Source: Ensifer adhaerens (GTDB lineage Bacteria; Pseudomonadota; Alphaproteobacteria; Rhizobiales; Rhizobiaceae). Taken from it: DNA of 64,000 bases. The position numbers were made by a program, and so were the translations under genes. Position 1 is the stretch's first letter. Every line of letters begins with the position of its first letter. Shown here piece by piece: positions 5,936 through 37,947 of this stretch. The stretch is taken from contig NZ_CP083349.1 in the NCBI RefSeq assembly GCF_020035535.1, forward strand, positions 3,056,501-3,120,500. The letters run 5' to 3'. Below the pieces are notes generated by a model. It was not told the origin of the DNA. It worked only from the letters and a program-made list of their open reading frames with translations, and did not search any database.

Positions 5936-7007
5936 AGGTCACGACCCCCAGAACCGGAAACTGCCCATCCGTGAGGACGATGTCGCCCGATGGAGCAAGC
6001 AGCGTATGCCGGTCTTCACCCGTGGTCTGGGAAATCGTCTCAGAAATCCACGACCGCGACAGGACGAACACGTTTGCCGGAATGCCAGGCCTGCACCGAT
6101 CACGAAACATTGCCGTCAGGTTTTCGGAAATACGCGCCCGCAGCTCCTCCGTATCCACGGAAAGCCCGGATATGGTGATATCGACCGGTCGTGCGATCGG
6201 GGCCTGGGCAACGCTGTCGTCAACCCTGATCAGCCTTTGTGCATCGATCGCCGCCTGCACTGCATCGACGTCAGCAGGCAACGGGATCAGATTGGGGCGA
6301 CCTTCGAAGAGAAAGAAGACGACAACGAAACCCGGTGACTGCGTATCCCGATAGGCCCAGGCTTTCGCGACTCCAGACACGGATAGTGCAATGCGTTCGT
6401 AATCAGTCAGCGTGCCACCACCTGGCGGGTTGCGCTTGCGCTGAAGTCCTCGCGTTCGCAGCGATTCATCGCTTTCGATGTCTGCACCACCGCCAATACC
6501 GCCAGCCGCCACAGCCCATTGCGTATCGAGATCGGGCCACAAACCAGGATCGGCAAGTGTCATTGCGCCGTCCGCATCACGATTGGCAGACGCTGCAAAC
6601 TCGAGCGACGTCACCGCCAGACTTAGCTGTCCCCCGGCCGCCGCTGTCGCCGGCGCCGTCGAAACATAGGTGTTTCGACCAGACACAAAACGGATACCGG
6701 CGGGGTAGACGGTGCCCGCAAGCCCCAGTCCTTCAATCACACCAGACGCCGATGCCGCCGGCCGGCGATAGATACCGACATCTGATGCATGCAGAGCAAG
6801 ATACGGACCGCTCGCGGTCGACAGAAACAACTGTCGCGCCAGCCAGCCCATCCGCAGTTCGAATTCGTGACTGATGCCCGCCAGCACCTTTCCGGTCACC
6901 GTCACGAAGTTGTTTGCCAGTGCCGAATCCGTGCCCGGCAGGTATTGTCGAAAGGCGCCACGAACGCGCGCAGAGGTCTCGCCGAGAGAGCGGATCGTCC
7001 AGGCCAT
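5925..7007 (-). CDS. Baseplate J-like protein, Mu gp47-like
   Basis: A 360-aa wedge protein. I start at the ATG at 7007 (MAWTIRSLGE); the frame upstream is open but has no clear start. The GSDSAL-type early segment, the GVIEGLGLAGTVYPAG beta domain and the ERIALSVSGVAKAWAYRD motif are characteristic of gpJ/gp47. It sits between gp46- and gp48-like genes, overlapping the latter by 11 bases, which suggests coupled translation. Confidence 0.88.
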   Translation of the reverse strand: MAWTIRSLGETSARVRGAFRQYLPGTDSALANNFVTVTGKVLAGISHEFELRMGWLARQLFLSTASGPYLALHASDVGIYRRPAASASGVIEGLGLAGTVYPAGIRFVSGRNTYVSTAPATAAAGGQLSLAVTSLEFAASANRDADGAMTLADPGLWPDLDTQWAVAAGGIGGGADIESDESLRTRGLQRKRNPPGGGTLTDYERIALSVSGVAKAWAYRDTQSPGFVVVFFLFEGRPNLIPLPADVDAVQAAIDAQRLIRVDDSVAQAPIARPVDITISGLSVDTEELRARISENLTAMFRDRCRPGIPANVFVLSRSWISETISQTTGEDRHTLLAPSGDIVLTDGQFPVLGVVTYGA

Positions 7008-27041: not shown

Positions 27042-27580
27042 GCCGGCCTCGCACGCATGTAGAGATCATAATCGCCTCGCAGCTTGCGGAACCGCGCCGC
27101 GCAGGACGCGTCATCGTCGAGCTGCTTTTTCGACTGGATATTGAGCAGGAACTTGAGGCGGGTATCGGCCTCATCGGCCGAGCGGACCGCTCCGCCTGCC
27201 CCTCGCCCTTCCAGGAAACGATGAAACGTCGGTTTGCCGCAGAGGATCGCGGCGACCTGGCTTGCAGGACGATTCGCCCGCGCGCGGCCCTCCAACTGCC
27301 CGCGAAGATCGAGCACCGTCGCCGCCGCGCGATCCTGCAACGACAAGAACAGCCGCAACAGTACAAGGCCGCTCGACAGCAACTCGAGTTCCGACGCCAA
27401 GGCGTCGGCATGAATGGTGCAGAGCGCGACGGCCTCTCCGGTCGAGCGCTTCGCGATAATGCGCGTCGCCGAGCCATCGACGTCGATCTCCCAATCGTCG
27501 CCCATCAGCCGGTCGGCGATATCGCGGAACCGGGCCAGTTGCGTCTTTTCGCGGGCGCGATCGGGAGAAACGGCCATCAC
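27038..27580 (-). CDS. Hypothetical phage protein
   Basis: 180 aa, helical with a hydrophobic leucine-rich middle (LASELELLSSGLVLLRLFLSL) that is probably a packed helix rather than a membrane span. Two start codons in tandem at 27580/27577 overlap the methyltransferase stop. No family recognised. It belongs to the leftward early operon. Confidence 0.6.
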   Translation of the reverse strand: MMAVSPDRAREKTQLARFRDIADRLMGDDWEIDVDGSATRIIAKRSTGEAVALCTIHADALASELELLSSGLVLLRLFLSLQDRAAATVLDLRGQLEGRARANRPASQVAAILCGKPTFHRFLEGRGAGGAVRSADEADTRLKFLLNIQSKKQLDDDASCAARFRKLRGDYDLYMRARPA

Positions 27581-28935
27581 TGGCTATCCTCCTCCTCGTC
27601 TTCCGGCACGGTGTCCGGGTTCCAGGTGTAGGCCCAATCGACCCGCTTGATGATGGTCGTGTCGCCATAGGTGCCGTCTTCCTGCAACTCCCAGACGCAC
27701 CACATCGTGTTCATCTGGCTGGACGCCTTGTTTCCGTCCCAGCCGTCGCGGTGCATCATCGGCACCCGGCGCTTCATCACGTAGATCCGCGCCGGCGGGC
27801 ACGTCTCCATGATGTAGTTGCGGTCAGGATCGTCGAACCCGGCGAGCACATTGAGATTGAGCAGGAGCGCCATCTTGCGCGGCTTGCGAACCCGCAGCGC
27901 ATGCGCGATGCAGGAGTTCATGTCGTCGCCATAGGGCGGGTTCGAGACGATATCGTGCGACGGGCCTTCCGTTTCGCGATAATCGCCGATGTCCTGCACC
28001 ACGCCGTCTTTCGTCGTCGTGCCATAGTCGACGAGATCGCCGAGAACGACGTCATAGCCTGCAGTTTCGAGCACGCGAACGATGGCGCCGCGACCGCAGA
28101 AAGGCTCATCAACGGTTGCGGAAAATTGCTCAAGCGCAAGTATTGCGCTAGTCGCTTCCTCTGCCGTCTCGTAAAGATTGTTCCCGCGCTCTTCCTTGGT
28201 CGCCGTCCTGGTGCCGATCGCGTGCTTCAGGTTCGCCCGCGTCGGCGCGAGACCGGCCGCAACACGCGCAGCGATGGCGCGTTCGGCGATGCCCGGCGTC
28301 TTTTCTTCCGCCGCCGCCAGCTTGCGGGCGTCGTGAATTTCCTGCCGGGTAAGTCCCGCTTCCGCCTGCTTGAAAATGTCGTCAGTTGCGACATTTTTCG
28401 GACGTCCCTTTTTGGACGCCTGCCCCGCCTGCTGCGCGGCGTCATAGGCCTTGGCAAGCTCGATCTTGCAGCGCGTTTCCATCAGCAACGCGTCGCCCTG
28501 GAGCTGCCGGAACTTCGGCACAAGCTCACGCGTGGCCGCATACTTGGCCGCGAAACGGGCTTCGGCTTGTGTCAGGTCATAGGCGCCATCGGCAATCACC
28601 AACGCGCGCTGGATATCACCTTCATCGAAGAGCCGGGCGGCAGTTTCCAGCATGGAAACGATCTGCGGGACCTGCGCCCGCTGCGGCATCTCGACGATAG
28701 CGGTGCTCGGCGCCGGTGCAGCGTCGAGCAACCCGAGCGAGCGAGCCGCGGCAAGACCGGTTTCCGTGGGGAAGCAAAGCGCAACGTCGGTGTCGTGCCG
28801 GCGCACGAAACCATGCTGGTGCAGCCGCTGAATGCGACGCTTGGCGCCGCCGTCCGGTGCCCGGTACTCACCGGTGGCGACCGCACGAAGGATGTCTTTC
28901 TGTTCGGGAGAGAGCGAGGCGACGATATCCAGCAT
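27577..28935 (-). CDS. DNA adenine-type methyltransferase with N-terminal winged helix
   Basis: 452 aa. Residues 1-70 look like a winged helix. About 110-245 is helical and resembles methyltransferase-linked DNA-binding parts. EPFCGRG (277-283) is motif I, the acidic loop GDLVD follows near 300, and NPPY at 332-335 is motif IV, typical of N6-adenine or N4-cytosine enzymes. No restriction gene is adjacent, so it is a solitary phage modifier, perhaps protecting against host restriction. Confidence 0.78.
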   Translation of the reverse strand: MLDIVASLSPEQKDILRAVATGEYRAPDGGAKRRIQRLHQHGFVRRHDTDVALCFPTETGLAAARSLGLLDAAPAPSTAIVEMPQRAQVPQIVSMLETAARLFDEGDIQRALVIADGAYDLTQAEARFAAKYAATRELVPKFRQLQGDALLMETRCKIELAKAYDAAQQAGQASKKGRPKNVATDDIFKQAEAGLTRQEIHDARKLAAAEEKTPGIAERAIAARVAAGLAPTRANLKHAIGTRTATKEERGNNLYETAEEATSAILALEQFSATVDEPFCGRGAIVRVLETAGYDVVLGDLVDYGTTTKDGVVQDIGDYRETEGPSHDIVSNPPYGDDMNSCIAHALRVRKPRKMALLLNLNVLAGFDDPDRNYIMETCPPARIYVMKRRVPMMHRDGWDGNKASSQMNTMWCVWELQEDGTYGDTTIIKRVDWAYTWNPDTVPEDEEEDSQ

Positions 28936-29167: not shown

Positions 29168-29650
29168 TCAGGCCTCCGCCGTCGCGGCTGCGACCCGTTC
29201 GAGCGCCCGGATCGCCTCAAGCGCCTCGCGGTGAATCGTCCGCTTTTCGAGCGCGTCATACTTGCCGTCAGCGCCGGCATCGATGATCGCCTTCGAGACA
29301 TCCATGGTCTGCGAGAGGACGCGGTGCGCATCGAGTTCGGTAAGAGGCTTGACCCCTTCCCGCCCAGCCGAAGGCACGAGATCGAAACCCAGCATCTTCG
29401 CCGCTTCGGATAGGATGATCGGTGAGCCGGCCCGCAAGTCCGCCTCGACGGCAATGTCGATCGGGATCATCGACTGGCCGTGCTCATAGGAGCCATCCTG
29501 CCGGCGCTCGCCGAGAGTGGCATATTTGACGAGGCTGGAGACGGCGACACGCGTCAACAGCGCGAACGAAGTGACGCCACCACCCAGGCGGTAGCAGGCA
29601 TCCGTTACGCCCTTCAGGGCAAGGATCTGTTGTTCGGAAATCAGGCGCAC
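29168..29650 (-). CDS. Putative phage regulator in the CII position
   Basis: A 160-aa protein, second gene after the cro-like gene. LGGGVTSFALLTRVAVSSLVKYATLGE resembles a helix-turn-helix. GUG start at 29650. In lambda-like phages this slot is taken by CII, so a regulatory role is plausible but rests on position. The C-terminal half is helical. Confidence 0.55.
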   Translation of the reverse strand: MRLISEQQILALKGVTDACYRLGGGVTSFALLTRVAVSSLVKYATLGERRQDGSYEHGQSMIPIDIAVEADLRAGSPIILSEAAKMLGFDLVPSAGREGVKPLTELDAHRVLSQTMDVSKAIIDAGADGKYDALEKRTIHREALEAIRALERVAAATAEA

Positions 29651-29884: not shown

Positions 29885-30142
29885 TCATTCCGCCGCCTCG
29901 ATGAGGTTGAGAATCAACTCAGTGGGAACGGATCGAGCCGCACAGTTGGCCTCGTACAATTCAGCCGGGCCGTGCTCGGTGAGCGCGATAATGACAGGCC
30001 AGTGGCGGTCCGGGATGCCGGTCTTCGTCCACTTGTAAACGGCGTCCTTAGAGATATCGCCGCCCAAACGGACGATGGTCGAGGCGATCACCTCGGCGCC
30101 GCCCGCATCCTTAATAATCTGCCTTATCGAAATTGTGCTCAT
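29885..30142 (-). CDS. Cro/YdaS-like helix-turn-helix regulator
   Basis: 85 aa from the ATG at 30142 (MSTISIRQIIKDAGGAEV). The first about 50 residues form a helix-turn-helix with the YdaS/Cro pattern (GGDISKDAVYKWTKTGIPDRHW). It is divergent from the CI-like repressor, and the 85-base gap holds two 13-base operators. It is the first gene of the leftward lytic operon. Between its stop and the next gene (29651-29884) I see no convincing gene. Confidence 0.8.
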   Translation of the reverse strand: MSTISIRQIIKDAGGAEVIASTIVRLGGDISKDAVYKWTKTGIPDRHWPVIIALTEHGPAELYEANCAARSVPTELILNLIEAAE

Positions 30143-30157
30143 GCATGCACCAATAGT

Positions 30158-30170
30158 GGATTTTAAATCC
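30158..30170. promoter_or_regulatory. Repressor operator O1 (GGA-N7-TCC)
   Basis: A perfect 13-base palindrome, GGATTT-T-AAATCC. It lies in the spacer of a leftward promoter candidate (TTGAAG, 17 bases, TATTGG) driving the cro-like gene, so binding would block that promoter. Confidence 0.7.
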
Positions 30171-30197
30171 AACTTCAAGGCACGCGAAATCCAGACC

Positions 30198-30210
30198 GGA
30201 AATTATTTCC
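30198..30210. promoter_or_regulatory. Repressor operator O2 (GGA-N7-TCC)
   Basis: A perfect 13-base palindrome, GGAAAT-T-ATTTCC, 40 bases from O1 (start to start, about four helical turns) and 18 bases before the repressor ATG. Confidence 0.7.
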
Positions 30211-30227
30211 GAACTTATGATGGCGGA

Positions 30228-30938
30228 ATGACGATGACCTGGTGGAAACGACTTGATGAACGGCGAAAAGAACTCGGCTGGAATAAAGCCGAGCTATCCC
30301 GGCGTTCCGGCATCCCATACGACAACATCAACAAGTATCTGCGCGGCGACATCGACCAGCCACGCGGCGATGTTCTTGAAACGCTCGCAGAGACGGTCAA
30401 GCGACCCCTGTTGTGGTTGCGCGACGGCATCGACGCAGCGCAAAGCGAGCTTACCCTCGTGCCCGGCCGCATGGTGGCCGCGCCGGTTGTGGGCCGCGTC
30501 GAGGCCGGAGCATTTCGAGAAGTTGATCCTTTCGACCAGTCGGAACGGGAACTGATCTCCGTACCGCCGGATGAGCGGTTTCCCCATGCCCGCCAACTCG
30601 TCTTCGACGTAACTGGCGACTCCATGAACAACTTGCGGCCACGCCCGATCTTTGACGGCGACCGCGTGATTGCTGTCGCGTATGAAGACGTCGCCAGCGA
30701 GGCGGTGCTGCGAGATGGAATGGTTGTCGTGGTCGAACGAACTCGCGATGGCGGCCACACCCGCGAATGGTCTGTGAAGCAAGTGGAGATCTACGAAGGG
30801 CGAACAGAGTTTCACCCGCGATCCAACAACCCAAAGCATCGGCCAATCGTTGTAGAACGTGACGCCGAGGCCGACGACGGCACGCGGGTTGAAGTGATCG
30901 GCCTGGTTCGTCGAGTTCAGAATGACCTTGCGTTCTAA
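30228..30938 (+). CDS. CI-like prophage repressor (XRE HTH + S24 peptidase)
   Basis: 236 aa from the ATG at 30228. Residues about 3-60 are an XRE helix-turn-helix (KAELSRRSGIPYDNINKYLRG). The C-terminal half is a LexA/CI autoprotease: cleavage-type Ala-Gly in RVEAGAF, nucleophile Ser in VTGDSMNN, and Lys in REWSVKQVE. Self-cleavage on SOS would induce the prophage. Flanked by operator pairs at 30158/30198 and 31529/31570, like lambda CI between OR and OL. It ends overlapping a convergent gene by four bases. Confidence 0.92.
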   Translation: MTMTWWKRLDERRKELGWNKAELSRRSGIPYDNINKYLRGDIDQPRGDVLETLAETVKRPLLWLRDGIDAAQSELTLVPGRMVAAPVVGRVEAGAFREVDPFDQSERELISVPPDERFPHARQLVFDVTGDSMNNLRPRPIFDGDRVIAVAYEDVASEAVLRDGMVVVVERTRDGGHTREWSVKQVEIYEGRTEFHPRSNNPKHRPIVVERDAEADDGTRVEVIGLVRRVQNDLAF

Positions 30939-31237
30939 GCCGCAAAGCACATGCGCACGTCGAAAGAACTGCAGACCTTCCGCACTTCGGTAAGCAACCA
31001 GGTCGGCGGCTCGACGCACATGTAGCTGCGATTGTCGGCACCAATGAAGTTCATAACCGGATAGACGCCAAACCGCCCCTCACCATCCGCCGGCCCAATC
31101 ATCGTGACCTTGAAGGAGTAGCCGGGAAAGTGCCGCTGCAGGTAGTCGATGAAGCGCTCCTTCGCCGGCATAATCTCATCGCCCCGCTCTCTTGGCGGCA
31201 CGATGATGAACTCTGTGACTTCTCTTGGATTACGCAT
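30935..31237 (-). CDS. Hypothetical protein in immunity region
   Basis: 100 aa with AGGAG before the ATG. Alpha/beta small protein (HFPGYSFKVTMIGPADGEGRF) with no family I know. Convergent with the repressor gene and overlapping the next minus-strand gene by eight bases. Position between repressor and the second operator pair equals that of lambda rexAB, but the sequence is unrelated. Confidence 0.65.
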   Translation of the reverse strand: MRNPREVTEFIIVPPRERGDEIMPAKERFIDYLQRHFPGYSFKVTMIGPADGEGRFGVYPVMNFIGADNRSYMCVEPPTWLLTEVRKVCSSFDVRMCFAA

Positions 31238-31463
31238 AGTTTTTCTCCTGGCTAACGCCGATCACTCGGCCGACTTGGCAATCGCAATGACGACAGCGGT
31301 AGAGGAGCGTGTCGAGAAACCCGCTCTCAGCCAACTCATCGGCATCGCACGGCGCATCGTCTACAGGCGGGATCTCGATCACCCGTGAAGTCTCTCTGAG
31401 GCAGTTGTCGCAACGGATGAAAAGACCGAAGACGCGCGGCTTATGCCGAAGTGCTACCGTCAT
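31230..31463 (-). CDS. Small zinc-ribbon protein in immunity region
   Basis: 77 aa with AAGGAG before the ATG. FIRCDNCLRE and YRCRHCDCQV give two CxxC knuckles, a zinc ribbon. First gene leftward of the O3/O4 operators, so likely repressor-controlled. Function unknown. Confidence 0.65.
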   Translation of the reverse strand: MTVALRHKPRVFGLFIRCDNCLRETSRVIEIPPVDDAPCDADELAESGFLDTLLYRCRHCDCQVGRVIGVSQEKNYA

Positions 31464-31528
31464 GTTTGTTCTCCTTTGGTTCTCATAATCCAGAGAAACA
31501 GCCCTGAGTCGAGTCGAATTGCGAATAT

Positions 31529-31541
31529 GGAAAATAAATCC
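31529..31541. promoter_or_regulatory. Repressor operator O3 (GGA-N7-TCC)
   Basis: GGAAAATAAATCC has the same ends, length and AT-rich centre as O1/O2. It lies where a leftward promoter for the zinc-ribbon gene would be (candidate TTGGTG, 18 bases, TATTCG). Confidence 0.62.
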
Positions 31542-31551
31542 AATTCACCAA

Positions 31552-31580
31552 TTGACGGCTCTCCAAGTTGGATTTAATTT
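31552..31580 (+). promoter_or_regulatory. Promoter of the rightward early operon
   Basis: TTGACG at 31552, a 17-base spacer and TAATTT at 31575. The leader would be about 28 bases to the ATG at 31615, with CCGGAG as ribosome site. The O4 operator covers the -10 box. Confidence 0.65.
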
Positions 31581-31582
31581 CC
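31570..31582. promoter_or_regulatory. Repressor operator O4 (GGA-N7-TCC)
   Basis: GGATTTAATTTCC lies 41 bases from O3 start to start, repeating the spacing of the O1/O2 pair (40). It overlaps the -10 of the rightward promoter, as expected for repression. Confidence 0.65.
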
Positions 31583-31614
31583 AGTTCGCAATGCAATTCC
31601 AACCGGAGACTGAC

Positions 31615-31836
31615 ATGCTCAAGAATCGCTTCGACAACGCCACCCCTGACCAGCTCACCGAGGCCATGGCGGACGCCATGCGGCGTCACGGCGACGGCTG
31701 CACCCGCAACCAACTGAAGTCTGACGGCTTCTCCAACGAGCAGATCGACCACTACGGCGACCGTGCCCGCGAACACGCCACGGCGCTCGCATCGAGCACG
31801 ATCCGCGCCCGCGTTCCTGCCGCCAAGGCGGCCTAA
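31615..31836 (+). CDS. Small hypothetical phage protein
   Basis: 73 aa from the ATG at 31615, chosen for the GGAG site and the promoter just upstream. Helical; LTEAMADAMRRHGDGCTRNQLKSDGF could be a small DNA-binding bundle. First gene of the rightward operon. Function unknown. Confidence 0.65.
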   Translation: MLKNRFDNATPDQLTEAMADAMRRHGDGCTRNQLKSDGFSNEQIDHYGDRAREHATALASSTIRARVPAAKAA

Positions 31837-36197: not shown

Positions 36198-36532
36198 AGT
36201 CGACCGTTGATCCGCAGCTGCTTGCATTCGTGCGCGCTTTGGCGAAAGCTGACGCCCGCCGAGACCGCCTGCGCGGATCGAATGTCCGCGAGGAAACAGA
36301 ATGCAAAGAAGACGCGCCGCAATCTATGCCCGGTTCTCAACCGATCTGCAAAGCGAAAGGTCTGTCGACGACCAAATCGAACTGTGCCGCGAATTCGCGA
36401 CACGGCAAGGCTACATCGTCGCCCGCTCCTACTTCGACAAAGCGCGTAGCGGCGCGTCGATCTTCGGACGAGACGGCCTACTCAGTCTCATGGACGATGC
36501 CCGCGAAGGTAAATTCGACGTTGTCGTCGTAG
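36194..36532 (+). CDS. Small ORF overlapping the recombinase start
   Basis: Starts by ATGA overlap with the ASCH gene. The first about 35 residues (PQLLAFVRALAKADARRDRL) look genuinely coding, but the remaining about 77 residues overlap the recombinase in another frame and look random. It may be a short phage protein whose stop was lost by a frameshift or by recombination. Confidence 0.35.
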   Translation: MKSTVDPQLLAFVRALAKADARRDRLRGSNVREETECKEDAPQSMPGSQPICKAKGLSTTKSNCAANSRHGKATSSPAPTSTKRVAARRSSDETAYSVSWTMPAKVNSTLSS

Positions 36533-37914
36533 AAGCGCTCGACCGCCTCTCTCGCGACCAGGAGGATCTGGCCGGGCTGCATAAGCGCCTCACTTTTGCC
36601 GGCGTCGAGATCGTCGCGGTGCATGACGGCACGGCCGACGCGATCCAGGTTGGCATTCGTGGCCTAGTCTCAACCCTCTTTCTAGCCGATCTCAAAAACA
36701 AAATCCGCCGCGGCATGACCGGCGTCATTCGTGACGGCCGGCACGCCGGCGGCCGCGCCTACGGCTATCGCCCGACGCCCGGCCAGCCGGGAATGTTGCA
36801 AATCTTCGAACCGGAAGCCGAAATCGTGCGCCGGATCTTCGCGGAAACGCTCGGAGGTTCCTTGCCGAGGGAAATTGCAGCCGACCTCAACCGAGATGGC
36901 ATCTCCCCACCTCGCGGCCTCAACTGGAATGCAAGCACGATTAGCGGCTCAGCGCAGCGCGGCAACGGCATCATTCGCAACCCGCTCTATTGCGGCCGGA
37001 TCGTCTGGAACCGCATCCGAATGGTTCGTGACCCCGAGACCGGAAAGCGCGTGAGCCGGCCGAATGATAGCTCGGAGCATAGGGCGGCCGACGCGCCGCA
37101 CCTGGCGATCGTCGACGTGATAACTTATGAGGAAGCACTGGCGACGCTGGAAGGCCGAGCAAAAAAGGCTCAAGGCGGCCAAGACACCAGACGCCCCAAG
37201 CGTCTGCTGTCTGGCTTGCTTCGCTGCGCGCACTGTGGCGGCGGCATGTCGATGCACGATCGCAGTGGCGATATCATCCGCATCCGTTGCAGCCGCTCGA
37301 AGGAGAGCGGCACTTGCGCCAATCAGCGCCGCTATAACCTCAACAAAATCGAAGCGGCAGTCATCTCAGGTCTTACCGATCAACTGCTGCATCCCGAACT
37401 GCTCGCCGAGTATGTTCGCGTCTATCACGAAGAGCGCCGCGACGAGGTCGCCAAGGCGGCCCGCGAGAGAACCAGCAACGAACGCCGGCTAGCTGATCTC
37501 CACGGGCAGCTTGAACGCCTTATGCAAGCGCTCGCCCGCGGCATCCTGCCGATCGAGGCCGTCGAGGGCCAGTACAAGCCGCTGCAGAATGAGAGAGATC
37601 GTGTCGCCGCCGAACTGGCGCTTATCCCCAGTGCGCCGGTGTTGGAGTTGCACCCGCACGCGGCGAATCAATATCGGAAAGCCGTCGAGAACCTCGCGGC
37701 CCGCCTGAACGAACTGGACCCCAAGGCAGACGCCGGCGCGCTCGCCGAGTTCCGCAGCCTAGTTGACAGCGTGATCGTGCATGATCGCAAAGACGGCGGC
37801 GTTGAAGTCGAGGTGATCGGCCATCTGTCGGCGCTCGTTGGCGCCAAGGCCGAGCTGCTGGGGGGACGGATGGTAGCGGAGGAGGGATTCGAACCCCCGA
37901 CACAAGGATTATGA
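36301..37914 (+). CDS. Large serine recombinase (prophage integrase)
   Basis: 537 aa with GAGGAAACAG before the ATG. Residues 1-140 are the resolvase catalytic domain with nucleophile Ser in YARFSTDLQSERS and the arginines in ALDRLSRD and the later K-N-K-I-R-R helix. About 155-260 is the recombinase domain, CAHCGGGM...CSRSKESGTCANQ a zinc ribbon, then a coiled coil (about 390-440). The last about 14 codons (VAEEGFEPPTQGL) are antisense tRNA sequence, so the natural C-terminus was changed at integration. It integrates and, with a partner, excises the phage. Confidence 0.92.
   Translation: MQRRRAAIYARFSTDLQSERSVDDQIELCREFATRQGYIVARSYFDKARSGASIFGRDGLLSLMDDAREGKFDVVVVEALDRLSRDQEDLAGLHKRLTFAGVEIVAVHDGTADAIQVGIRGLVSTLFLADLKNKIRRGMTGVIRDGRHAGGRAYGYRPTPGQPGMLQIFEPEAEIVRRIFAETLGGSLPREIAADLNRDGISPPRGLNWNASTISGSAQRGNGIIRNPLYCGRIVWNRIRMVRDPETGKRVSRPNDSSEHRAADAPHLAIVDVITYEEALATLEGRAKKAQGGQDTRRPKRLLSGLLRCAHCGGGMSMHDRSGDIIRIRCSRSKESGTCANQRRYNLNKIEAAVISGLTDQLLHPELLAEYVRVYHEERRDEVAKAARERTSNERRLADLHGQLERLMQALARGILPIEAVEGQYKPLQNERDRVAAELALIPSAPVLELHPHAANQYRKAVENLAARLNELDPKADAGALAEFRSLVDSVIVHDRKDGGVEVEVIGHLSALVGAKAELLGGRMVAEEGFEPPTQGL
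37864..37914. other. Prophage attachment junction in tRNA 3' end
   Basis: The recombinase frame runs from phage DNA into the tRNA gene and stops at TGA 37912-37914 inside its anticodon loop. The crossover therefore lies within or beside the tRNA 3' half; its exact bases need the left junction, which is outside the window. The tRNA stays complete, including CCA. Confidence 0.6.
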
Positions 37915-37947
37915 TTCCTCTGCTCTAACCTACTGAGCTACTCCGCC
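37871..37947 (-). tRNA. tRNA-Met (CAT anticodon)
   Basis: 77 bases including encoded CCA. Acceptor GGCGGAG / CTCCGCT, D-arm GCTC-GAGC, anticodon stem GAGGA / TCCTT with loop ATCATAA, and T-arm around GGTTCGAATCC all fold. Anticodon CAT allows elongator tRNA-Met or tRNA-Ile2 (lysidine); the nine-base D-loop resembles the Met form. The acceptor begins with a G-T pair. It is the phage integration target. Confidence 0.88.

Follow-up and report, generated by a model that had tools for sequence, protein, structure and literature searches.

The window, the stretch of 64,000 nucleotides that was analysed, contains a lambda-like immunity region of an integrated temperate phage with two operator pairs, in a Sinorhizobium/Ensifer-like host; this assignment, made from the sequence, is well supported. 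The genes, as annotated, are arranged as a mirror image of lambda. It had been overlooked that the two genes lying between cI and the second operator pair run against cI from one conserved promoter. This promoter carries a LexA-type box and two abutting GANTC sites, and it looks as if it were controlled by the DNA-damage and cell-cycle systems of the host. To judge from the open-licence literature, neither the operator set in this group of prophages nor the gene that faces cI, with its LexA box and GANTC tags, has been described before. The coordinates of all features are collected in Table 1.

Direct inspection confirmed the four 13-mers that had been reported as operators, both in their coordinates and in their spacings of 40 (O1/O2) and 41 (O3/O4); the distance from O1 to O3 is 1371. 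They had been described as perfect or near-perfect palindromes. By eye, O1 and O2 are both perfect about a central base; O3 and O4 are palindromic chiefly in their outer arms (3 and 2 arm mismatches, respectively). The motif had been written as GGA-N7-TCC. This definition was dropped, as it is not above chance (18 matches in the window, 20.5 expected), whereas the form with an AT-only centre, GGA-W7-TCC, is strongly enriched, with 4 matches in the window and 0.04 expected under a first-order model. In the complete genome of 8,125,528 bp it occurs four times, and these four are O1 to O4; the reversed pattern, used as a control, has 1 match per strand. Equal frequency of the motif elsewhere in the prophage had been named as a result that would speak against operators, and the AT-only-centre form was found to have no copy outside the two clusters anywhere in the genome. 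The master repressor of the prophage very probably binds at these four repeated sites.

Table 1. Features of the immunity region and its surroundings (positions in the window).
Feature	Position	Strand	Remarks
DNA methyltransferase	27577..28935	-	96% identical to GANTC-specific Phi3LM21_p21
CII-like activator	29168..29650	-	phrog_101
cro-like gene	29885..30142	-	first in leftward operon; homologue annotated Cro-like in phi3LM21
cro-like promoter	30150..30178	-	-35 TTGAAG 30173-30178, spacer 17, -10 TATTGG 30150-30155; from sequence and alignment
operator O1	30158..30170		GGATTTTAAATCC; inside 17-bp spacer of cro-like promoter
half-site GA[AT][AT]TCCA	30186..30193	+	between O1 and O2; outer positions invariant (26 unique close relatives)
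operator O2	30198..30210		GGAAATTATTTCC; immediately upstream of cI -10
cI promoter, -10 TATGAT	30216..30221	+	6/6 columns invariant; -35 not recognisable
CI-like repressor	30228..30938	+	HTH_3 (PF01381) and Peptidase_S24 (PF00717), both above cut-off
second leftward gene	30935..31237	-	100 aa, unknown; ends on cI stop
zinc-ribbon-like gene	31230..31463	-	77 aa, CxNC...CxxC (Cys4)
LexA-type box GTTC-N7-GTTC	31468..31482	+	predicted start of leftward transcript; 13/15 columns invariant (27 unique relatives)
two abutting GANTC sites	31506..31515 (starts 31506, 31511)	+	GAGTCGAGTC; overlap presumed -35 of leftward promoter
operator O3	31529..31541		GGAAAATAAATCC; upstream of rightward promoter
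rightward early promoter, -35 TTGACG	31552..31557	+	TTGAC invariant; between O3 and O4
operator O4	31570..31582		GGATTTAATTTCC; AT centre at expected rightward -10
first gene of rightward early operon	31615..31836	+	phrog_22869, unknown function
serine integrase	36301..37914	+	right of rightward genes; 3' end overlaps tRNA-Met gene

The repressor is 99.6% identical to a phi3LM21 product annotated as CI repressor. Its autoprotease positions are kept among its relatives (A93 in 75/78, G94 in 75/78, S132 in 74/78 and K184 in 75/78) and correspond to the Ala-Gly cleavage site and the Ser/Lys dyad of self-cleaving repressors. A search of the PDB with the CI sequence gave no match. The original proposal of a lambda-like immunity region is thus upheld by a genome-unique motif, the same sites in relatives, and a CI with HTH and S24 domains in which the autoprotease positions are kept. 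Further to the right, the tRNA-Met (CAT) gene at 37871-37947, overlapped by the 3' end of the integrase gene, is a likely attachment site; no convincing pair of attachment repeats was found inside the window.

Relatives of CI were found in 4 of 16 genomes of the genus (the present one counted), at 36 loci in viral contigs, at 10 loci in genome contigs and in 8 records of named phages, three of them rhizobial; several of these loci are one prophage present in two collections. A close set of 34 loci, in which the repressor shares at least 64% identity with CI, spans 370,816 bases; it counts the locus of the window itself as well as duplicates, and it leaves out L054 because the match there is limited to the C-terminal part. 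A scan of related prophages had been suggested as a check, and it revealed that these sites recur next to the homologues of cI and of the cro-like gene: 23 of the 34 loci keep all four exactly, as two pairs, 10 have three of the four, and one is truncated before the second cluster. Every GGA-W7-TCC in the close set falls in one of the two clusters, and the spacing within a cluster is 39-41 wherever both sites are exact. The O2 position lacks the exact motif in 8 of the 34 loci. Among 26 unique relatives, 11, 7, 7 and 11 of the 13 columns are invariant in O1, O2, O3 and O4, respectively, while none of the 41 four-fold degenerate columns of cI is. The distance between the clusters ranges from 1066 to 4574 bp. 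The largest value belongs to L021 (repressor match at 6001-6705, region to about 10549), in which about 3.2 kb of additional genes, possibly in a cargo slot, lie between cI and the zinc-ribbon promoter.

These comparisons also bear on the protein that uses the sites. The operators might chiefly serve the cro-like protein or CII instead of CI, and the cro-like gene does adjoin O1 and is present in all 34 close loci (its PHROG match is weak). However, the motif tracks the CI sequence, as it is found in none of the 18 loci with a repressor less than 64% identical, and lineages with another CI have other palindromes in both places. We consider this alternative highly improbable, with the reservation that such tracking does not fully separate CI from Cro, because the cro-like gene changes along with CI. 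The other lineages show a recurring plan: their operators differ, and two palindromes are arranged around TTGAC beside a GANTC pair and a LexA-type box. An automated operator search detected clear palindromes common to both clusters in L059, L090, L107, L111, L118 and L138, with three sites spaced 34 and 34 in L090. For the remaining lineages this search returned noise, in part since the cI start had been set too far upstream.

Each site had also been said to fall in a promoter candidate. A scan of positions 29900-31700 with a strict sigma-70 consensus yields zero promoters, but conservation does mark promoter-like elements at the sites. In the alignment of relatives, the cro-like promoter is conserved chiefly at CTTG and TATTG. 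The gap between the TATGAT element and the cI ATG is 6 nt in 15 and 7 nt in 19 of the 34 close loci. As transcription usually starts some 7 nt past the -10, the cI mRNA is predicted to be leaderless. The cro-like ATG likewise lies about 6-7 nt past its -10 in the sequences read.

Three operators per cluster were not found: there are two full sites in each, and the alignment of relatives shows a conserved half-site in the first cluster, between O1 and O2, but none in the second. A complete third site at this place was considered and dropped, as the half-site alone is conserved there; given the three sites of L090, a lambda-style middle operator is possible. The centre of the half-site is near -42 relative to the predicted cI start. 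Since lambda CI activates its own promoter from near -42, the half-site may be a degenerate third operator, or else an activator site.

When 11 members of the zinc-ribbon family were compared with curated models, the Pfam matches were all weak (best E 0.0064), and the PHROG matches were weak, unnamed and confined to one member each. The protein appears to belong to no named family. For the second leftward gene, no Pfam or PHROG match was obtained. Relatives of the zinc-ribbon gene were sought independently of CI, resulting in 79 viral-contig loci and a further 7 places, which are spread over 6 of the 397 genomes from the order (the present one counted). Single linkage at 70% placed these 86 loci in 28 clusters, which we use as lineages.

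The sequence GTTC-N7-GTTC is described as the LexA target of alphaproteobacteria (PMC12700426, PMC7987155), and in the host the same box precedes the lexA match by 50 bp and recA by 170 bp. The box alone is weak evidence, because the genome contains 148 and 130 matches on its two strands compared with 104 and 106 for the controls, and conservation was therefore used as the test. With 160 bases examined per locus, GAAC/GTTC-N7-GAAC/GTTC was present in 82 of the 86 zinc-ribbon loci and in 26 of the 28 clusters, and absent in L114, L119, L121 and L130. Alternative spacings of 2-6 and 8-14 were seen in at most 3 of the 86 loci.

The GANTC sites were counted in the 65 bases before the box in the 26 lineages having it. 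At least one site is present in 25 of these lineages and at least two in 23, compared with maxima of 12 (mean 5.65) and 4 (mean 0.60), respectively, in 500 base shuffles of the same stretches. Six control palindromes of GANTC form reach at most 6 lineages and a further control, CTNAG, reaches 4; six of the seven other palindromes occur at least twice in no more than 2 lineages. Typically the two sites lie 29 and 34 bases ahead of the box, but some lineages keep two GANTC sites elsewhere with a different middle base, which points to the methylation site itself. The longer form YGAKTCK was found in 21 of the 26 lineages and in at most 6 in the shuffles. This form was proposed for GcrA in Caulobacter, while another species is described as having no such preference (PMC7987155); a GcrA homologue is present in the host. 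The methylase Phi3LM21_p21 has been shown to methylate GANTC (PMC5537653). The idea that the GANTC pair requires a methylase encoded by the phage was considered and found unsupported, as the methylase went undetected in many relatives. Across the window (1-64000), GANTC is scarce, with 77 sites compared with about 225 from a rough base-composition estimate.

It could be argued that the box merely reflects conservation of a ribosome-binding stretch, and the GANTC pair that of the -35, with neither LexA nor CcrM in control. In many members the box does overlap AAGGAG, the likely ribosome-binding site, and part of the box can be conserved for this reason; the alignment places AAGGAG inside the box in the window's own family; the GANTC pair also overlaps the presumed -35. 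Yet L110, L137, L061 and L063 keep GAAC-N7-GAAC despite other centres and a start codon farther off, spacings other than N7 are as rare as given above, and the GANTC count is kept though spacing, position and middle base vary. We thus regard a by-product as very unlikely.

We propose a switch in which CI and its four operators are opposed by a LexA-held, GANTC-bearing leftward promoter, and we consider this model, taken as a whole, likely. Its starting points are observed, namely the sites and their conservation, the box, the GANTC pair and the gene order. CI bound at O1/O2 would turn off the leftward promoter of the cro-like gene and tune its own gene, and at O3/O4 it would shut the rightward early promoter. 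A third promoter, between the clusters, would fire leftward, head-on into cI. Host LexA would hold this promoter off via the GTTC-N7-GTTC at its start, and both host CcrM and the GANTC methylase of the phage would methylate the GANTC pair, which may make the promoter dependent on GcrA. DNA damage would then act twice, by RecA-stimulated self-cleavage of CI and by releasing the zinc-ribbon operon, so that its protein product or its transcript, convergent to cI, would reduce CI activity still more. The model thus supposes protein binding, promoter strengths, methylation control and a zinc-ribbon protein or transcript that opposes CI.

The last of these suppositions is drawn from the zinc-ribbon loci. 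A CI relative is convergent to the zinc-ribbon gene in 80 of the 86 loci and in 25 of the 28 clusters; in L060, L063, L081, L108, L130 and L143 it is absent from the fetched stretch, some flanks being short. Because CI is convergent this often, the operators differ and conservation is higher in the C-terminal domain of CI than in its HTH (0.68 vs 0.44), as would be expected from a partner shared via the C-terminal domain, we infer that the zinc-ribbon protein or its transcript acts on CI. The gene would encode a partner of CI that is released in the SOS response, possibly under a methylation gate, and that may be an antirepressor. Alternatively, the region could be a plain lambda-like immunity region in which the leftward pair is SOS-expressed cargo that leaves CI unaffected, e.g. 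a factor for cell division or host takeover. The stretch from cI to the second cluster indeed varies in length (1.07, 1.36-1.37, 1.74 and 4.57 kb), as a cargo slot would, and the second leftward gene has a relative in only 62 of the 86 loci. We nevertheless judge cargo rather unlikely, given that the zinc-ribbon gene remains convergent to a CI relative though the operators differ.

With CI acting from both clusters, the intervening 1.37 kb might also be looped, as in lambda. The conservation of two clusters of two sites each in relatives agrees with this, but the distance between the clusters varies fourfold, which looping would tolerate and does not require; we view looping as possible, if somewhat doubtful. 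A still bolder reading would make the zinc-ribbon family a new class of SOS-induced antirepressors within the immunity region, which bind the C-terminal domain of CI and release heteroimmune prophages together, from a promoter that works as a two-key lock (loss of LexA, and GANTC methylation by host CcrM and phage methylase). In this complete form the idea is speculative and, in our estimate, unlikely. If true, the two-key promoter would tie induction to DNA damage and the cell cycle. Against the proposed switch in general stands phage phi3LM21, almost identical in this region, which mitomycin C failed to induce in LM21. Its authors allow that it is possibly inactive; the result counts against SOS induction, and a defective prophage may explain it.

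A 2025 study of phiLM21-like prophages reports that operators were not found, and considers both difference and decay (PMC12429752). For the phi3LM21 type, which is related to these prophages, an exact and testable operator set is now available, and at least several further operator types are indicated in the same layout. No prior description of the LexA-boxed gene or of these operators was found in the open-licence literature. LexA control of phage switches as such is already known in other phages (e.g. PMC3121763). Since the LexA-boxed, GANTC-tagged gene facing cI occurs in 26 of the 28 lineages sampled and has no named family, it offers a cheap, well-defined way to test how prophages of rhizobia are tied to the SOS response and perhaps also to the cell cycle.

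The resemblance to lambda includes a CI with HTH and S24 domains, a divergent cro-like gene, a CII-like gene, operator clusters flanking cI, an early operon that points outwards from the second cluster and is followed at a distance by the integrase, and a leaderless cI, which is predicted here. The differences are that lambda has three sites per cluster, compared with two full sites here, that the operator sequence is another, that genes between cI and the oL-like cluster oppose cI from a LexA-boxed promoter, and that the integrase is a serine integrase. The operator of Rhizobium phage 16-3 has the form ACAA-N6-TTGT and by this is set apart from the one described here. Phage 16-3 is described as having a repressor C and the operators oL1, oL2, oR1 and oR2, and thus shares the arrangement of two operators on each side (PMC12429752).

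Among the closest known systems is Sinorhizobium phage phi3LM21 (MF614628), whose CI, methylase and zinc-ribbon protein are 99.6%, 96% and 94.8% identical, respectively, and which has the four operator sites, the box and the GANTC pair. In the phi3LM21 paper (PMC5537653), the word "operator" has 0 occurrences. The phage differs in its integrase, a tyrosine integrase at tRNA-Pro compared with the serine integrase here.

Among LexA-controlled antirepressors, Tum of coliphage 186 belongs to an unrelated gene order and lacks CcrM-type sites. GfoA and GfhA of Gifsy-1/-3 are described as LexA-controlled antirepressors that act across repressors with different operators (PMC3121763). They share with the present case a small protein gene under direct LexA control in a lambdoid prophage, here predicted from the box. 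According to the same source, their gene lies outside the immunity region and the repressor is uncleaved, whereas here the gene faces cI and CI keeps its autoprotease residues; antirepressor activity is known there and is suggested here by position and regulation. With the GcrA/CcrM promoters described for Caulobacterales (PMC7987155), the leftward promoter has in common the GANTC in the promoter, in the YGAKTCK form in 21 of the 26 lineages; it differs from them in being a phage promoter that also bears a LexA box.
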